In this document: one piece after another, positions 2,435-54,326 of the stretch | Layout: each line of letters starts with the position of its first letter | Position numbering within the stretch: the first letter of the stretch is position 1 | NCBI GenBank assembly: GCA_006503475.1 | Contig: RSEH01000122.1 | Coordinates: 62,001 to 126,000, forward strand | Length of the DNA: 64,000 nucleotides | Direction of reading: 5' to 3' | DNA from: Stentor roeselii | Taxonomy: Eukaryota; Ciliophora; Heterotrichea; Heterotrichida; Stentoridae | The notes under the pieces: model-generated | The model's database searches: none | What the model was told of the DNA's origin: nothing | The model's input: the letters and a program-made list of their open reading frames with translations, nothing else | Made by a program: the position numbers and the translations under genes

Positions 2435-5305
2435 CTAAAACTTTTTGGATATTTTTGGAGAGATTCCAGAAATAACGTTTTCAACGTCAACATCTACATT
2501 TTTCTTCTTTTTTTTCTTGATTTTTTGTTTTGCTTTACCCTTCTCCACACAAGCAACTCTAGACCCAAAAGTAAGCGAGCTTAATGTTTCACTAACATCA
2601 TCATTCGAAGGGTTAACAGTGATAATCATTAAAGTTTTCGCATCTCCCGAAAGTGAATCTCTAAGTAAATGCGTTAACTTAGAATCCCGATACGGTATAT
2701 GTGCCTGTTTTCCAGCAAGTGAATAAAGAACTTTCCCCAACGCCGACAACGACTGATTAATATTACAAGCTTCAACCATTCTAATCCCCTCAGCCTCCGA
2801 CTTACAAATTCTTTCACTTCCAGCAAGATCAATTAAATTAAGTTTCGACACAAAAGACCCTTCAGAATTACTGCAATGAATATAAATAGTGACAATACAA
2901 TGCGACCTGGAGCTATACTCATTAATATTCGTGCACCCTACAGATCTATTTGTCTTTCCAGCTTCAATATGCTTGATCAAATCATTATAATTCTTAATAG
3001 GACTCACTTCCACTCCTGGCAAATGCATATTTCCTTTAGAATCTTCTCTTATTTCAATCTTTTTTCCAGAAGGGTTGAGAAGATCCCTGACCTGTTCATT
3101 ATAAACTTCTAGAATAGTAAGTTCAATTGAGTACTTATGAGTTTCAACTCGACTTTCAATGATTTCAAAGATTTCGCGCACAGCGCGAAAGTTGATACCA
3201 AGGCACTTCGAAGTTCCTTCCATTGTGTAAGTCTTTCCACTGCCAGTCTGTCCATAAGCCATGATGCAAACGTTGAAGCCATTCATGGCGGAGGTGACCA
3301 TATCACTGACTTCATAATAAACCACTTCCTGAGAGTCAGTCGTGGGGAAGACCCTGTCGAACTCGAACCAGTTTTCTCTTCGAGTGATCAAGTTGACTAA
3401 CTTGACCTGACAAGTGTCCATCACTGTGATACTTTCCTCGAAATGCTTTTCAGAAGCCATCAAAGGACGAACACGACACATGACCCTGATATTTCCTCTT
3501 AAGTCCTGAAGTAAAGCATGAAGTCTACGTCTTTCAGCCATTTCTTTCCTGTACTTTTCATTCACTTCCTGTAATAACACCTGAGTCCTTTCTAAAGCTT
3601 CTCCACCGTCAAGACTAGTGAAAGTACTTTCTTTAAAAAGAACATCTTTGATTTTTTTAACGACTCCAGCGACGTATTCAGCCTGTTCTAAGTCGTAATT
3701 AGTAAGTCTTTCAGGAGCGACTCCTAAAAGTGCCCTGATTAAATCTTCAACTTTTGGCCTTTCCAGTACTTTTACAAGAGAAACTTCGAGAAGTCCTGCT
3801 TTCCAAAGTTCGATTTCACTATGAGCTTTTTTTGAGTTATTTTCATAACTCGAGTACTCAGTCCTGGTCTTTTTCAGTTCGCTTTCAACTCGACTTTTTT
3901 CGTGATCTGCCCTTTGAAGTTTTTCTTCAAATGTGAAAGTTGCTTGAGAGAGAGAAGCTCGTAGTCGAAGAATTTCTGACTCGTAAGACTCTTCTGATTT
4001 TTTCATGGAAGTTTGAAGGGCTCGCAGTTGGATTTGTGATTGTTCCAAGTTGTAGACGATTGTTTGGTAGTTTAGAGTAAGGGTCTCGTGTAGGTCTTCT
4101 AGTTGTGATAAAGTTCGAGATTTTGATGTTTTTTCTTCTTGTTCTTTTGAAAGACGCTCGTTTAAGTCGTTATTTACTTGTTTGAGTGAATTGGTTTCTT
4201 GTTTGCTTTGGTCGAGAAGAGTTTCGTGTTTTTTTAGAAGGTGTTGTAGGTCGGTGATCTTGGAGGATAGGAAAGAATTTTGGTTTTCAAGGTCTTTTAT
4301 GTACTTTTCACGACGTTCTGACATTTCTTTTAGTTTTCCTTCTCGAGATGCGAGGTCTGAATGGATTTTTTCTAACTCGTCGCTGATGCGGATTTTTTCG
4401 TTGATTTCTTTTAAGCTCTGCTTTTTCAGGGTGTTAATCTCGTTTTCAAGACCCTCTGCTCGGTGTTTAAGCCCTTTGTTCTCAACTCGTAGACGGTGGA
4501 GTTCTTCGTCTTGGTCCTTTTTAGCCTTTTCCAGCTCTTTAAAAGTCATTTTCGCTTCTTCCAGCTTTGCCCGGATTTCAGAGTCGCTGATTTTTCGCTC
4601 TTCGTAAATTTCGATCCACTTTTTTTCTTTTTTTTCGAAGTTTTGGATGATTTCTTGATCTTTTTTCAGCTTTTCTGAAAATTCCTCATTTTTTTCGAAG
4701 GCTTTTTTCAATGCCAGGTCTTTTTCCTTTTCTTTTAGCTCTAAAAGATTTTTACTTGCGACAAGTTTTTCTTTCCAGTTAGAAGCTTCTTCATTGAGAC
4801 TTTTAATGGTTTCTAAAAGTCGATCATTTGAATTTTTGCATTTCGTGAATTCGACTTCAAAGTTTTTCGACTTTTCAGTCTCTGCTGAGAGTTTTTGTTG
4901 AGAAATAGTCAGATTTTTTTGAAGGTCTCTGTTGTTTTTTTCTTCTTTTTCCAGTTTTTCCTGGATTTTTTTCATTTTTTTTTCAAGTTCTTCTGATTTC
5001 TGAGATTTCATTGAAAAGTGCTGTACCAGGCTGAGTTCTTTATTTTTATAGAGATGTTTAGTGAATTCATATCTTTGCATTAAAACATTGAAGTCGTTTT
5101 GAAGAGAGTTTTCCCGGTCAAGGACAAGTTTGAGGCTTTCTTTTAATTCAAAAATATTTTGATTGCTTTTCAAAAGACAGTCTTCAAGGACCCTGACATG
5201 ATTCGGAAGAGAGTCACTTTGAATGAAAATCCCTGAAGACTGAAGATGACTGACACTATTCTGCAGAAAACTCGACTCATCAAGGCAGAGGTCATCAAGG
5301 TTCAT
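2435..5305 (-). CDS. Kinesin-14 (C-terminal motor kinesin)
   Basis: Minus-end-directed microtubule motor by family. From the second ATG (5305) the protein is ~956 aa. Most of the N-terminal two thirds is Glu/Lys/Leu-rich coiled coil. The kinesin-14 neck-motor junction LRGNIRVMCRVRPL is followed by a full motor domain: P-loop GQTGSGKT (~residue 685), switch I NEYSSRSH, switch II NLIDLAGSER and HIPYRDSKLT. A poly-Lys and acidic tail closes the protein. An in-frame ATG at 5347 is possible but would overlap the divergent Atg18 gene starting at 5335; 5305 leaves a ~29-bp spacer. No intron is apparent and the motor aligns without insertions. Likely roles are spindle or cortical microtubule organisation (family knowledge; the exact subfamily is not assigned). 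Confidence 0.93.
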   Translation of the reverse strand: MNLDDLCLDESSFLQNSVSHLQSSGIFIQSDSLPNHVRVLEDCLLKSNQNIFELKESLKLVLDRENSLQNDFNVLMQRYEFTKHLYKNKELSLVQHFSMKSQKSEELEKKMKKIQEKLEKEEKNNRDLQKNLTISQQKLSAETEKSKNFEVEFTKCKNSNDRLLETIKSLNEEASNWKEKLVASKNLLELKEKEKDLALKKAFEKNEEFSEKLKKDQEIIQNFEKKEKKWIEIYEERKISDSEIRAKLEEAKMTFKELEKAKKDQDEELHRLRVENKGLKHRAEGLENEINTLKKQSLKEINEKIRISDELEKIHSDLASREGKLKEMSERREKYIKDLENQNSFLSSKITDLQHLLKKHETLLDQSKQETNSLKQVNNDLNERLSKEQEEKTSKSRTLSQLEDLHETLTLNYQTIVYNLEQSQIQLRALQTSMKKSEESYESEILRLRASLSQATFTFEEKLQRADHEKSRVESELKKTRTEYSSYENNSKKAHSEIELWKAGLLEVSLVKVLERPKVEDLIRALLGVAPERLTNYDLEQAEYVAGVVKKIKDVLFKESTFTSLDGGEALERTQVLLQEVNEKYRKEMAERRRLHALLQDLRGNIRVMCRVRPLMASEKHFEESITVMDTCQVKLVNLITRRENWFEFDRVFPTTDSQEVVYYEVSDMVTSAMNGFNVCIMAYGQTGSGKTYTMEGTSKCLGINFRAVREIFEIIESRVETHKYSIELTILEVYNEQVRDLLNPSGKKIEIREDSKGNMHLPGVEVSPIKNYNDLIKHIEAGKTNRSVGCTNINEYSSRSHCIVTIYIHCSNSEGSFVSKLNLIDLAGSERICKSEAEGIRMVEACNINQSLSALGKVLYSLAGKQAHIPYRDSKLTHLLRDSLSGDAKTLMIITVNPSNDDVSETLSSLTFGSRVACVEKGKAKQKIKKKKKKNVDVDVENVISGISPKISKKF

Positions 5306-7631: not shown

Positions 7632-9080
7632 CTAATGATTAAAAATCCGATTCTCTTTGCCAGACCTAGTTTCTTTTAAAGTTGTAACAATAATTGAGCA
7701 TCCTACATTAGCAGCTGCCAGCAAGCACATTAAAATAAAAACTCCTCCAGTTCTAGACAAAAGCACCCCACTGATGATAGGTCCAGCGATTCCTCCAATT
7801 CTTGAAAAAATGCTTAAAAAGTTGGTGCCAGTTGACCTGACCTGGGTTGGAAAAGACTCTGAACTCAAAGTATAAAGCGCTGAGTACCCCATGTTAGTAA
7901 ACAAAAAGACAAGTGACGAGGTAACAGTAGCCTAAATATTTGCTACAAAGTAAAACTCTTGCCTAAGCATAAACAACAAATCAAATAACCCAGCTCCTAA
8001 AAATCCAGCTGAAGTCGTCCACTTCCTGCCCATCTTCGTCTTGACCAGCTGAGCCCCAAGCCAAGCTCCAGGAATCCCTACGGCTTGTTGAATCATCATG
8101 ACAAAATAACTGTCAGAAGTACTCATAAATCCTAAAAGTTCAGGCATGAAATTGATAAAACTAGCGAAGGCCAAAATAGCGAGATTCATTGCCTGAATGA
8201 ATTTTACAAAGCTAAGTTTTAGAGTAGTTGGCAAGAGTCTTCTACTGAAAATTCTTTTAAAAAGTACTGAAATAGGAGGATTTTCTTCAATTTCAGTTAT
8301 TAACGAACTATAAACTGATTCTTTTCCCTGCTGCGAAGTCGGGTCTAGGACTGAATTTGTGTCGTTGAAGTCGAACTCTTCTTTTTTATTTGTCATTGAA
8401 ACCTGATTCAAAATCGCTTCAGCCTGTTCGAAGTTTTTGTTTCGGAAAAGGAAAGGAGGAGACTCTTCGATGAAAAAACGTAAAATTGTATTGAAAACAA
8501 TTAAAACGAGTATCGCCACACAAATTATTCGCCAGTCATAAAAAGGGGTATGGTTCAGTAAAACCACGACTAAAGCGATAACTGAGACCAAAATCGCTCC
8601 GACACTGATGTTGAAATAAAGAAGAGCCAGCAGATGACGTCGAGAAGGAGGGCAAAACTCGCAGAAGACTGTAGCTGAAAGACTCATTTCTCCTGAAAGA
8701 CTGTAGCCCAGCAGTAAGATGCTTGCACACATCATGTAAGGGTGCACCGAGGAGCAGATTAGAATTATCGAAACCAAAGCTAGAATTGAGCTCATTCTAA
8801 ATGGAAACTTTCGCCCCTTTTTGTCGCTTAGGAAACCCCAGGTCAGGTTGCCGAAAAGCATCCCCACGTGGTATAGAGAGGCAATTATTCCCAGGAAGAC
8901 TGGTGATACGCCCCATTCTTCTTGAACTCCTTGTAATATGTAAGCCATTCCTACGAACATCGACTCGTAAACGACTAAAGCCTTTATAAGGATTACTGAA
9001 CCACATATTAGGAATACTCGCAGGTTGTATTTACCCCAGCCTATTTGATCGAGTGCTTTGTAACCAGGATTGTCTTCCAT
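7632..9080 (-). CDS. MFS transporter, SV2/SVOP-like (copy 1)
   Basis: Membrane transporter of the major facilitator superfamily, ~472 aa. Exons are 9080-8997, 8981-7947 and 7931-7632. Intron 2 (7932-7946, GTAGCAAATATTTAG) contains a stop. Intron 1 (8982-8996, GTAATCCTTATAAAG) keeps the frame; removing it restores a TM1 of the same length as SVOP proteins and matches an intron at the same place in the paralogue at 52.9 kb. Visible features are the MFS loop motif GFLSDKKGRK, about 12 hydrophobic segments, and the SVOP-like YSALYTLSSESFPTQVRSTG followed by RIGGI. The substrate is unknown; family members carry organic ions, sugars or nucleotides. The first ATG (MEDNPGYKALDQIGWG) aligns with the start of the paralogue. 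Confidence 0.9.
8982..8996 (-). other. Frame-preserving, stop-free 15-nt intron (MFS copy 1)
   Basis: GTAATCCTTATAAAG on the minus strand fits the local intron pattern (GTA start, A at position 10, AG end). It sits exactly 84 nt after the ATG, as does intron 1 of the paralogue. Read through, it would add five residues (VILIK) to TM1. Confidence 0.75.
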
Positions 9081-48216: not shown

Positions 48217-51200
48217 ATGGATTTTCTGTCGAATAGGTTTTTGACTTCCACAGGAGACATCATAAGTTATGATCTAACAACTTCATTCGGGCAAGTGATT
48301 TATGATAATTCAGGGAGTCTTCTTCACGGCGTACTAGGTTCGACCCTTTTGGCTGAGGATGTCGACCCTATTCTCACAGACCGAGGAGGGTACTTCGAAA
48401 GTTCAAGGTACATCTGCTTACCTCCAAATGCGTTATTACCAGAAGATAGTTTGACATTAAGCAACTTTTACTCCGTTTTTTTTGCATATCTGATATCTCA
48501 AGGAACCATTTTTTCCATTTTTAATTCAGCATCAAAGAAACTTGAACTTTCATACACTTCAAATGTTTTGTCATTATCTTATAATGATGGTCTTTTATAT
48601 GGTAACTTAGAGTTATCAGTTCAATCAAGTAATTAATAAACAGATACTTGGATCCCTGTTATGGTTATTCTTAATGCACTATCTTTGAATGGCTGCTTAC
48701 TTGAAAACCTTGCAATAAAAGTTGCATTGAAGGACACTCGATTAATTTTATCTTCATTATCAGAGACTACTGTTTACAATATAAAAATCGGGAGCTCTTC
48801 ATCAGGTTTTACAGGATTTATCAGTGAATTTCACATGTTTTCAGCTTCATTTTGTCAGTCTGCTTATGATACTCATTCTTTAACTGCTTTTCCGAATGGG
48901 GACGAAAACCCTTATGTCATAAATAATGTAGAAGTTTGTGACTGCGATGATTTTTCTTGCACTGGAAGTGTTTCTAATTGCATTCGTTGTCATGATGATT
49001 GCGATCTTATGTGCTTAGGGTCATCTAATTTAGAGTGTATTGATGGTATTGGTATTTGCAAACCTTATGCTATTATAAATGGGGTTTGTGATACTTCTTC
49101 CTCTTACCTTAGTAATTGCAGAAGACAAGAATCTAGCACTATATGCCTTGCATGTGATTCTGGGTATAATCTAAGTACTGATAAAACAATTTGTTGCCCG
49201 AATGGGTACTTTGGCAGTTCAGGTGTGCCCTGTACAGCATGCGATTCTCACTGCTCCGAATGTACAGGTCCTAATTCCAACGAATGTTTAAAATGCAGTG
49301 ACTCCTTAGCAACCCTAAATTCAGGTACCTGCACATGCGAACTTGGAACATCAATCAACGGTTCATGTTTAGGATGTTTAAACGAATGTTTAACATGCAG
49401 TACATCAACAACATGCGATTCATGTAAAGACTCAAACGCGAATCTCGATTTACTTTCCCGTTGTTCATGTTTATCTGGATTCTACAAAGACCCATCAGGT
49501 TCCTGCCAATTCTGCAACATTAAATGTTCAACCTGTTCCGGAGGCCTGAGTTCTGAATGCCTGACATGTTCAGATGCGAATGCCGAGTCACTATCCGGGA
49601 CATGCACCTGCAAATCTCAGTTTTATTACAACGACGTGAGTCTTCTTTGCGAGCCATGCAGTTCAAATTGTTTATCCTGCAGCGACGATGTTCTCTGCAC
49701 CAGCTGCAAAGACCCCAACGCGGAAGTATCAGTCGTTCCAGGTCCTTGCTCGTGTAAACTCGGCTTCTTCGACAATGGCTCTTCGCCTCTGACTTGCGCG
49801 GCATGCGACCAGACCTGCAGGTCCTGTTCCGGGCCTTCGGTGAATGAATGTAATGACTGCAAGGATGCCTTGGCTTTTAAAGTCAATTCAGTCTGCAAGT
49901 GCTCTGACGGCTTTAGTTATAACAACTTGTTTCAGTGCAGTAGTTGCCATGTGGACTGCTTGACGTGTGTTGGGCTTGGTGAGGAGAATTGTAGTTTGTG
50001 TAGTGATCCTCATGCCAGCTTGGGAAGTGGTTTGAATACCTGTCAATGTGGTTCTGGGTACTTCAAACAAGGACTGATGCCTTTTAGTTGTGTTGCGTGT
50101 CATGATAGCTGTGAGACTTGCACTGATTCAGGGATTTATGCGTGCTCGTCGTGTAAAGATCAGCGAGCTTCGGTGATTCAGGGAAAATGTGAATGTCCTT
50201 TAAGGTATTTCTTGAATGGGTTGTTTTTGTGTCAGTCTTGTCATGATACTTGCCTTACTTGCTCTGGTCTCAGTGGTTCAGAGTGTCTCAGCTGCTCAGA
50301 CTCGACTATGATCTTCGCTGAAGGGGAATGTTTTTGTATGGATTCACTTTTCTTTGATTTTTTTACGAGAAAGTGCCAGAAATGTCCTGATATCTGTAAA
50401 AGTTGTATTACGGATTCGGAATGTACAAAATGTATTGATAAGGGTTTGGAACTGGTCCAGGGGAAGTGCTTTTGTAAGAATGGATTCTTTTTTGAGAATT
50501 TTGATTTGATGTGTAAACCTTGCCATTATTCATGTAGGACTTGCTCTGGAAGAGGAATATCGGATTGTTTGAGTTGTGTCGATCAAAGTGTTAGTCCTTA
50601 TCAAGGGTTTTGTGTTTGCTTGTCTGGGTACTTTATGGAAAGTAAAGATCCTATTAATTGTGGAGAATGTAATCAGGAATGTTTAGAATGCACTGGCCCT
50701 TCAAGTTCAGATTGTCTAAAATGTAGAGATGAAAACTCATTGCTAGAGTCAAATGTTTGCGTTTGCCAAGATGGGTATTTTAAAGATGAAAACTCAACAT
50801 GTATAAGCTGCCATCATTCATGTTTAACTTGTCACAACTCCACCTCAAATGACTGCATATCATGTAAGGATCAGACCTTTCTTGATTCACAAGGAATCTG
50901 TAAAAATTGCCTAGAAAACTGCGACCACTGCACAAATGTAACTAAATGCCTCCAGTGCACAGAAGGTTTTTATTTAAACGAGGAAGAAACTTGTAGTCCT
51001 TGTGATGAATCATGTCTTTCATGTTCAAATTCAGGCCCTGAATATTGTTTGACTTGTAAAAACCAAAACATTCAAATGAACTCAATTCCTGGAAGATGCA
51101 GCTGTTTACCTGGAGAATTCATTGAAAAAGCCAATCCTTTGACCTGTCATGAATGTTCTGAGTTTTGCGAGTCTTGCACTGAAACTCAATGCTTGAAGTG

Positions 51201-52797
51201 CTTTAAAGACTTTTTATTAGTTGATGAAAAATGTGAAAAAAATGAATTTTTTCTTGATTTAATAGTTTTATACAACAATTCGATTTTACTGAAGTTTTCT
51301 GAAAAACTTGTGAAAATATTGAAAGATGAAGATATTCAAATTCATGATATAAATGAAAATGAGCTTAAATTTCAATTGAGTTTCTTAGCAGAGGATGAAT
51401 ATATTGTTGAGATTATTGACTTTAAGTTAACCAGCACAGAAAAATCACTTTATTTGATTTTTAAGAAAAACGTTTATAGTAAAACAGGAAGCAGTCTTTT
51501 AAAACTTGATTATTCTTTCAATGTCAAGTCTAATAAAAAATCAACTTTAGACTACACCGAAGTAATAAAGACTATTCTTGTGAATTCAATAGTTTTTTCT
51601 GGAATAGCTTCAATTGTTTTCAATAGTAATAATCCTTATGTCTGGCTTGCGATCAACACTATTCAAATCCTCAGCTATTCACCTCTGCTGAACATAGAAA
51701 TGCCAAGTTTCCTGAGAACTTTTTTGATAGGCTTAAGACCTTTATCATTAATTCACGTGGACTGGATAACTTCTAGGTTTTTTCCTTGTAACACAAAATC
51801 AATCAATCAACAATTTTACGATTACGGCTTTGTTTGTAAGTACTTTTTCAATAATACATCTGAAATCTTTCTTTCCTTTTTTGCTGGTCTATTGATTTTC
51901 TTAGTTCTTTTACTTATTAAAATAATTCCGATACAAAAATTGACTGAAATAGTGGAAAAAAAAATGAAATCTTATAAATTTGCGTTTTTTTTAAGGTTTT
52001 GGATTCAAGGCTATATTGAATTTTTAATACCTTGTGTTATATGTATTAATTTCGTAAGATTTAAGCAGCTTGCGTTAAGTTCTCCTAGTGAGGCTTTGAA
52101 TACCATTTTCGGGATTTTTTTTACAGTAAGTTTTAGTAAGGTCCTGACTCTCATAACTCCGATTCTTCTTTTTATTTTTTACAGATCTTCAATGAGGAAA
52201 ATAAAAGAAAGAAATAATGAGCTTTTTCAGAAGTATTCGACTTTACTTGAAGAATTCAATACCAACTCCAGTATTCAGATTTTCTACCCAATTTCACTGT
52301 TGGTGAAAATTATTTATGTTTTTACTTGGTATTTTTTGTATGAATTACCGATTTTTCAAGTAGCAATTAGTGCTTTTATTCCGATTTTCAACATATTTCT
52401 AGTCAAAAATACGAAAATATATAAAGAAAAGGGAACAGAGAAGATGTTTATTTTTGAAGAATTAACTATTTTTTTTGTTTTTGCCTTGCTTGGAATGCTG
52501 TTAATAAATTTAGAATCAAAATATAAACAACTGATTGGGTATTTAATCATAGGCATAATCATACTTAGTGTTTTTGTTGGAATTTTTACCTCCATCATAG
52601 ATTTCATAAAAAAGATTAAAAATCTCTGTAAGTCTGAGAAAATTGAAAGAAGTACTAATGCGAATAAATTCGACAACTCAATGATAACTCAAAAAGATTT
52701 CAAAAAATCTTCTGATTCTTTAGAAAAAAGCAATTTTATTCAAGTTGTTCCATTCAATTCAAATTATCCTTCAGCTGCTCATTCAATTAATTATTAG
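48217..52797 (+). CDS. Cys-rich (furin-like repeat) multipass receptor-like protein, copy 2
   Basis: Paralogue of the gene at 42.3 kb, ~1,511 aa. Exons are 48217-48628, 48644-52053, 52069-52125 and 52141-52797; introns are GTAATTAATAAACAG, GTAAGATTTAAGCAG and GTAAGTTTTAGTAAG. The last two keep the frame and have no stop, so the region reads as one ORF, but copy 1 has stop-containing introns at the same two places, with matching 57-nt exons between them. The domains are the same: LamG-like N terminus, ~15 Cys-rich units (for example CSTCSGGLSSECLTCSD shared with copy 1), a beta spacer, about eight TM helices and a tail ending IQVVPFNSNYPSAAHS. Exon 1 is 412 nt in both copies. Confidence 0.87.
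52054..52068 (+). other. Frame-preserving 15-nt intron (receptor copy 2, intron 2)
   Basis: GTAAGATTTAAGCAG. The paralogue has GTAAATTTTACTTAG, which contains a stop, at the same position (45961-45975). Reading through would add VRFKQ. Confidence 0.8.
52126..52140 (+). other. Frame-preserving 15-nt intron (receptor copy 2, intron 3)
   Basis: GTAAGTTTTAGTAAG. The paralogue has GTAAATTTTAGTTAG at the same position (46033-46047). Reading through would add VSFSK. Confidence 0.8.
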
Positions 52798-52885: not shown

Positions 52886-54326
52886 ATGGAGTCCAATCAA
52901 GCCTACAAAGCACTAGACAAAATCGGTTGGGGCTCCTACAACCTAAGAGTATTCCTACAATGTAGCCTAGTAATTTTAATCAGTCCTTAGTAGTATACGA
53001 AGGCATGTTCGTAGGGATCGCTTATTTCCTTCAAGGAGCTTCAGAAGAATGGAAGACTCCTCCATTAGTCTTAGGTGTGATAGCATCTTTATACCACGTA
53101 GGAATGCTTTTCGGAAACCTAACCTGGGGCTTTTTAAGCGACAAAAAAGGAAGAAAGCTTCCATATCGAGTTGTTTCTTTAGTCGGACTACTCTCAGGTT
53201 CACTGATCTTCCTGTCAATAAACCAGTTCATGATGGCCGGGGGGATTTTTCTTCTCGGCTTCAGCATGTCAGGCGAACTCAGCTTGTCCCCGACGGTCTT
53301 TTGCGAGTTTTGCCCTCCCAACAGAAGAAATTTATTAACTTTACTTTACCTGTCTCTGAGCATCGGCGCCATCGTCGTGTCGTTAGTGGCTTTGGTCGTT
53401 GTTTATCTAAACTCATCATCTTTTTATGACTGGAGAATCATCAGCGGGTCAATGCTGGTCGTCATAATCTTTAACACGATTTCCAAGTTTTTCGTTCAAG
53501 AAACCCCTGCTTTTTTATACCGAAACAAGGAAATCAGAGAATCTGAAGAACTTTTAAATGAAATTTCTCAGAAAAACAAGAAAAAATCATTTAGTTTCGA
53601 AGAAATCTCTTCAATATTAAATGAAAATGAAAGTTTTTCAGGAAAAGATCAGTCTTTACTGACAGAGATTCAAGAAGACCCTCCGATTTCAGTGCTGGTA
53701 AAAAGACTTTTTAGTAAAAGATTGATTTTAGTAACGATTCGATTGAGTCTTGTAAGAAAAAAACAGGCAATGTGTCTTTGTCTCTTTTCCTTTGCAGGTT
53801 TCGTGAACTTTATGCCAGAACTTTTAGGATTTTTAAGCACTTCTGATGCGTATCTCGTGATAATGATTCAACAAGCTGCTGGAGTTCCTGGATCTTTACT
53901 TGGAACTTATTTAGTCAAAACAAGACTTGGAAGAAAATGGACGACTTTTTTGTCGTTGTTTATTTCAGGAGTTTTTAATGTTTTGTTTCCACTGGTTAAA
54001 GAGTTTTACTATGTAAGGGTAAATAGGCTGTTGCAACGACTTCTGTTATTTTTCTTTTTACTTATATGGGGTATTCTGCTCTTAGCACTCTTGCTGCTGA
54101 GTCGCTTCCTACTCAGGTAAGGTCCACTGGAATGAGCTTTTTTAGTATTTTTGCGAGGATTGCAGGAATTTCTGCACCGATCATCAGTGGAGTCTTGCTG
54201 CAGGAAAATCAGGAATTTTTGCTTATGTGCTTGTTTGCTGCTGCGAATATTGCTTGTGCTGTCTTGGTTACTACTTTAAAGGAAACTCGGAAAATTGAAG
54301 GGTTGAATAAGGTTGAACAGAATTAG
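52886..54326 (+). CDS. MFS transporter, SV2/SVOP-like (copy 2), with two 14-nt introns
   Basis: Paralogue of the transporter at 7.6-9.1 kb, ~470 aa. Exons 52886-52969 (84 nt), 52984-54012 (1,029 nt) and 54027-54326 (300 nt) match copy 1 (84, 1,035, 300 nt) at identical intron positions. The introns here are 14 nt (GTAATTTTAATCAG, GTAAGGGTAAATAG) and shift the frame unless removed. Features: MESNQAYKALDKIGWG start, MFS loop GFLSDKKGRK, ~12 hydrophobic segments, YSALSTLAAESLPTQVRSTG. No exon lesion is visible over 470 codons, which argues against a pseudogene, although near 54204 one residue is missing relative to copy 1. If 14-nt introns cannot be spliced, the gene is broken twice. Confidence 0.8.
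52970..52983 (+). other. 14-nt intron candidate 1
   Basis: GTAATTTTAATCAG, starting exactly 84 nt after the ATG as in copy 1. It has the GTAA start, TA followed by five nucleotides, and AG end of the local 15-nt introns, with one fewer base in the 5' half. Confidence 0.7.
54013..54026 (+). other. 14-nt intron candidate 2
   Basis: GTAAGGGTAAATAG, exactly 300 nt before the end of the gene as in copy 1. It has the same shortened layout as candidate 1. No other GT...AG choice nearby restores the frame. Confidence 0.7.

Follow-up and report, generated by a model that had tools for sequence, protein, structure and literature searches.

Two 14-nt segments in a Stentor roeselii transporter gene as very probable members of a minority class of 14-nt spliceosomal introns

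We analyzed a major facilitator (MFS) transporter gene, MFS copy 2, in a 64,000-nt stretch of Stentor roeselii DNA (hereafter, the window), and focused on two 14-nt segments that interrupt its coding frame. We estimate a probability of roughly 0.9 that both segments are real 14-nt GT-AG spliceosomal introns and that they represent a minority class, most introns of this genome being 15 nt and some 16 nt long. That RNA would be spliced at the 14-nt sites is suggested by several features of the genomic sequence: their length, the need to remove them to keep the frame, their position relative to introns of paralogues, their recurrence in other genes, and the shared motif GTAANNNTAANYAG.

The proposed gene lies on the forward strand. 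Exon 1 (52886..52969, 84 nt) is in frame from an ATG; intron 1 (52970..52983, GTAATTTTAATCAG) has to be removed for the frame to continue; exon 2 (52984..54012, 1029 nt) is open and matches the Pfam families MFS_1 and Sugar_tr; intron 2 (54013..54026, GTAAGGGTAAATAG) was also called by a gene finder that uses no motif; and exon 3 (54027..54326, 300 nt including the stop) is open to a TAG. Both introns passed the frame test described below. Once they are removed, the three exons join into 1413 nt encoding 470 amino acids followed by TAG, with an MFS_1 match of 4.1e-30. Reading the sequence directly, we found both segments where the original prediction had placed them, each 14 nt long and of the form GT...AG. 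These are the termini of U2-type introns, and both segments carry an A at position 10, as described for heterotrich tiny introns. Their length falls outside the 15 or 16 nt described for that group. Positions 9 and 10 (A9 and A10) are the candidate branch adenosines in each. Just upstream of the gene, at window positions 48661-52797, is an unbroken cysteine-rich repeat ORF of 1378 amino acids.

A paralogue in the same window, MFS copy 1 (7632-9080, minus strand), encodes a protein with 61% identity to that of copy 2. It consists of exon 1 (8997..9080, 84 nt), a 15-nt intron (8982..8996, GTAATCCTTATAAAG), exon 2 (7947..8981), a second 15-nt intron (7932..7946, GTAGCAAATATTTAG), and exon 3 (7632..7931 by derivation, 300 nt including the stop). 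The 14-nt segments of copy 2 thus occupy the positions of the 15-nt introns of copy 1, and the first and last exons are 84 and 300 nt in both genes, in agreement with the original prediction. A third paralogue (L003, on contig C39), examined by eye in translation, shows GT-AG segments of 15 nt at the equivalent positions, and its exon 1 is also 84 nt; the protein joined for dN and dS missed that exon, and the resulting values were set aside. At index 1468 this gene has, again by eye, an extra 15-nt GT-AG segment, GTAAGAGAAAATTAG, that is absent from both window copies. It had further been claimed that the frame of copy 2 is restored only if the two 14-nt segments are removed. Their removal does restore it, but the exclusivity does not hold: when GT...AG removals of any length from 9 to 79 nt are allowed, the first junction has 18 that open the frame and the second has 12 (the 14-nt ones included), and one of the alternatives is 17 nt. 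With so many removals that open it, the frame by itself leaves the junctions undefined; at the level of sequence, we consider them fixed by the paralogues together with the motif.

To place these segments in context, we surveyed intron lengths in the genome that contains the window (44.39 Mb, 522 contigs). Frames longer than 300 codons in the first sequence set examined ended in TAA (32), TAG (24) or TGA (8); these stop codons, like the intron size, fit a heterotrich. A motif-free gene finder, which penalizes every GT...AG gap of 9-25 nt equally, was run on 258 kb and then on 308 kb. Most of the introns it returned were 15 nt long; others were scattered over various lengths and lacked the motif. 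In the 308 kb it also returned two introns of 14 nt, namely MFS copy 2 intron 2 and GTAAGTTTAAACAG in a serine incorporator (Serinc) gene on contig C1, and left 3 frameshifts unexplained. When the gene finder was run with the motif on the same 308 kb, it called 27 introns of 15 nt, 4 of 14 nt, 2 of 16 nt and 5 of other lengths. We identified three likely 16-nt introns: GTAATGAAATAATCAG in a Serinc paralogue (L049, C468:1150-2520, index 828), at a site where the other two Serinc genes have 15 nt; GTAATCATTTACTCAG (C1:130171-130186, minus strand); and GTAAAAAATAGTTCAG in a kinesin gene (L039, index 184, reverse strand). The genome therefore appears to hold intron lengths on either side of 15 nt.

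We counted the pattern GTAA N(k) TANNYAG on both strands of the whole genome and obtained 473 sites at 13 nt, 480 at 14 nt, 2,965 at 15 nt and 370 at 16 nt, with 455 sites for the 14-nt pattern in which TA is moved by one position. Only 15 nt stands out; the 480 sites at 14 nt are not above neighboring lengths, which speaks against a large 14-nt class, and we dropped raw counts as proof of such a class. Instead, we scored individual sites with a frame test. To pass, a site had to show about 100 nt of open frame on either side once the segment was taken out, and a closed frame when it was kept. A pass is not proof of splicing, and since GT and AG are part of the search pattern, they are not independent support at these wider sites. 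For this test we retrieved flanks of 130 bases, upstream and downstream, for 40 sites of 14 nt, 20 of 13 nt, 20 of 16 nt and 8 of the shifted pattern, taken as the first in contig order rather than drawn at random. One site each of 14, 13 and 16 nt was counted in the 308-kb set instead; of these three, the 14-nt site (Serinc) and the 16-nt site pass.

Among the fetched sites, 10/40 passed at 14 nt, compared with 0/20 at 13 nt, 0/20 at 16 nt and 0/8 for the shifted pattern. The 308-kb set gave 4/5 at 14 nt (the two introns of MFS copy 2, the Serinc intron and a site that is ambiguous), 0/4 at 13 nt, 0/4 for the shifted pattern, 1/3 at 16 nt, and 0/16 for lengths 11, 12, 17, 19, 20 and 22 together. 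In total, GTAANNNTANNYAG passed at 14/45 sites versus 0/24 (13 nt), 0/12 (14 nt, TA shifted) and 1/23 (16 nt). With the two introns of MFS copy 2 left out, 12/43 sites still passed versus 1/59 controls (p = 1e-4). The 14-nt passes are not due to chance. A separate coding-score test gave spliced calls at 5/40 sites of 14 nt versus 0/40 at 13 and 16 nt. By extrapolation, the genome would contain 134 introns of the 14-nt motif (95% range 74-210), next to approximately 2,540 introns of 15 nt above background, so that the 14-nt class would make up about 5% of motif-bearing introns. The segments of MFS copy 2 very likely belong to this class, judging from the sequence, and if about 5% of introns are such, the presence of two in one gene would need no special cause. 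Carrying the motif is not enough to make a segment an intron, as illustrated by GTAATATTAATCAG (window 2753-2766, minus strand), which lies inside an unbroken kinesin frame and fails the frame test. A candidate on contig C60, GTAAAAATAATTAG, passes the mechanical test in an ambiguous context and was kept out of the set of supported introns.

That set comprises 11 introns of 14 nt, assembled by mixed criteria: MFS copy 2 introns 1 and 2, Serinc, kinesin, L057, L062, L091, L094, L095, L056 and L097. Of these, L057, L062, L091, L094 and L095 were automatic calls, and L056 and L097 were added by eye. The Serinc intron GTAAGTTTAAACAG (C1:123279-123292) was identified by the motif-free finder, the frame test and family alignment. 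The protein joined over its 14 nt aligns with SERINC3 through the junction and has a Pfam Serinc match of 1.6e-39, and two Serinc paralogues have 15-nt introns (GTGAGTTTTAATTAG and GTATTTAAAAGGCAG) at the identical site and in the identical phase. Since the paralogues have 15 nt at the positions of the 14-nt introns in both the MFS and the Serinc genes, one nucleotide was probably lost in each case, although this direction of change is our interpretation.

The kinesin intron GTAAAGGTAAACAG (L047, C220:39663-39676) was found through a frame break, and the motor-domain match of the protein joined over it (1.6e-7) spans the junction. Twenty of the 24 kinesin profile matches that start late were inspected, and 2 of the 20 break the frame: L047, at 14 nt, and L039, which is mended best by the 16-nt GTAAAAAATAGTTCAG. 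The kinesin motor family has at least 122 matches in the 44 Mb. When joined over 14 nt, L062 matches RRM_1 on both sides of the junction (1.3e-13), and its PDB-chain matches also cross; it fails the mechanical frame test because of a downstream stop. L091 matches Pfam CDC50 across the junction (3.7e-18), while its PDB alignment starts at residue 42 and does not cross. Support across the junction is weaker for L097, an Oxa1/YidC-like protein whose 60KD_IMP match of 6e-4 is below the family cut-off, and the Kelch matches in L057 support mainly the downstream side. Four of the 10 passing fetched sites (L065, L093, L099 and L101) are backed by open frames only. The matches of the joined Serinc, kinesin, CDC50 and RRM proteins to their families across the junction favor the view put forward at the outset, that 14-nt splicing is real. 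Our family searches differed in depth: full scoring of Aa_trans (PF01490) revealed no frame break in 17 candidates, and the searches with PF00069, PF00225 and PF00083 scored the best candidates only, which biases them towards unbroken genes.

We then considered where such an intron would branch. In the motif-free run, A10 was present in 16/17 of the 15-nt calls and A11 in 5/17, in agreement with the branch position described for Stentor coeruleus in the portion of the account available to us (PMC9505925). The corresponding values in the motif run, whose score favors A10, were 27/27 and 10/27. All 14 passing 14-nt sites have both A9, which the pattern requires, and A10, which it does not. Splitting the 45 tested sites by A10, we found that 14/34 with A10 pass and 0/11 without it do (p = 0.01). 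We also saw an enrichment of A after TA across all listed 14-nt sites, 64/100 versus 41/100 (13 nt), 34/100 (15 nt) and 16/45 (16 nt, the first 45 of 100 listed). However, GTAANNNTA contexts without AG in register are already 53% A (n = 134), and we dropped this list-level enrichment and kept only the pass/fail split as evidence.

These observations suggest that 14-nt introns probably branch at A10 and have a 4-nt tail. The branch A would keep position 10, like that of the 15-nt introns; the lariat loop would measure 10 nt and the tail 4 nt instead of 5. The TAA of a 14-nt intron would serve both spacings, since it places TA 5 nt before the end and also puts an A at position 10, and by allowing a branch at either A9 or A10 it may be why the 14-nt form is tolerated. 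The original prediction located the lost base in the stretch from the 5' splice site to the branch A. As written, this is unsupported, since the supported introns have both A9 and A10; the lost base may instead lie between the branch and the 3' splice site. At slightly better than even odds, we favor a broader model in which 14-nt introns are routinely spliced with the branch at 10 nt and a 4-nt tail, the loop rather than the total length sets the limit, and a one-base loss survives only where TAA provides A10. The 16-nt introns are mixed, with A at 11 in two and at 10 in the kinesin one; given those with A at 11 and not at 10, a fixed 10-nt loop is no rule for all lengths.

The strongest alternative accepts that the introns are real and 14 nt long and, in line with the original prediction, places the branch at A9; the loop would then shrink to 9 nt and the tail would keep its usual 5 nt. 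This keeps TA 5 nt from the end, and the shifted T9-A10 sites, which would have a 4-nt tail, passed in 0/12 cases versus 14/45 (p = 0.03), as though tail length matters. However, all 14 passing sites have A10, which a branch at A9 leaves unexplained: among 15-nt introns, only 10/27 have an A directly after the branch A. We regard it as a possible but less probable arrangement than a branch at A10.

The remaining alternatives deny that the 14-nt segments are introns of that length. One is that the introns are truly 15 nt long and that sequencing or assembly dropped a base, for instance in a short homopolymer. Short runs do occur in some of the introns (TTTT in MFS intron 1, AAAAA in L057), but runs of four or more are absent from 9 of the 11 supported introns. 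Moreover, the 3 frameshifts per 308 kb predict, with an assumed coding share of 65%, about 0.6 single-base lesions per 2,500 introns, compared with the estimated 74-210, and such errors do not predict A10 at all passing sites. This explanation is very unlikely. We give hardly any weight to pseudogene decay, in which MFS copy 2 would be dead and its lesions would happen to fall in introns. If the spliceosome cannot remove 14 nt, each of these single-base losses would indeed disrupt the frame, but the 1413 nt of exon contain no lesion, frameshift or stop, the 470-codon frame is intact, and constraint does not appear relaxed, with dN 0.31 and dS 2.1 relative to copy 1 (dS is near saturation, and the values cover the whole history since duplication). 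Decay also leaves unexplained the equal intron length in the Serinc, kinesin, RRM and CDC50 genes, and the earlier argument that random decay is unlikely is supported. Finally, that other splice sites or ribosomal frameshifting restore the frame is just as improbable, despite the alternative removals counted above, because the 14-nt removals yield exons whose lengths and positions match those of the paralogue, and the removed segments have the form GTAA...TA...AG. Nor would frameshifting account for segments bounded by GT and AG that, in MFS and Serinc, sit where the paralogues have introns.

A recurring 14-nt class, if confirmed by RNA, would lower the known limit on the size of an intron that can be excised. 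The genome also offers natural length variants at one position, 15/14 at both introns of the MFS copies in the window and 15/15/14 and 15/15/16 at two Serinc sites. These are substrates for asking how a megadalton spliceosome handles a tiny lariat, and whether the limit lies in the loop or in the total length. An annotation pipeline that accepts only introns of 15-16 nt would treat such genes as broken.

The literature we searched, which leaves out most subscription papers and preprints, yielded no 14-nt spliceosomal intron class in the text available; a match to "14 nt" referred to a telomere motif. In the portions of the sources accessible to us, 15 nt in Stentor coeruleus is quoted as the low end of intron size (PMC12316389, PMC12862383), introns under 10 bp have been predicted in Arabidopsis (PMC6161759), and the account of Blepharisma stoltei contains no 14-nt introns (PMC9942806).

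As far as the same partial sources describe them, the introns examined here resemble those of Stentor coeruleus in being GT-AG, A/T-rich and mostly 15 nt, with the putative branch A of the 15-nt introns at position 10, followed by a 5-nt tail, and the genetic code is standard in both (PMC9505925). The 14-nt class proposed here differs from the annotated introns of that species, which are of 15 nt (8,173) and 16 nt (633) only (PMC9505925). Blepharisma stoltei likewise has introns predominantly of 15 and 16 bp in a gene-dense genome; unlike in that species, where TGA encodes tryptophan, TGA is a stop here, though the rarest (PMC9942806). Other lineages come close to the same limit with longer introns: the spliceosomal introns of mikrocytids, at 16-17 nt, are also near the lower size limit (PMC10245619), and those of Loxodes have a mode of 17 nt with a negligible share under 16 nt (PMC11441545).
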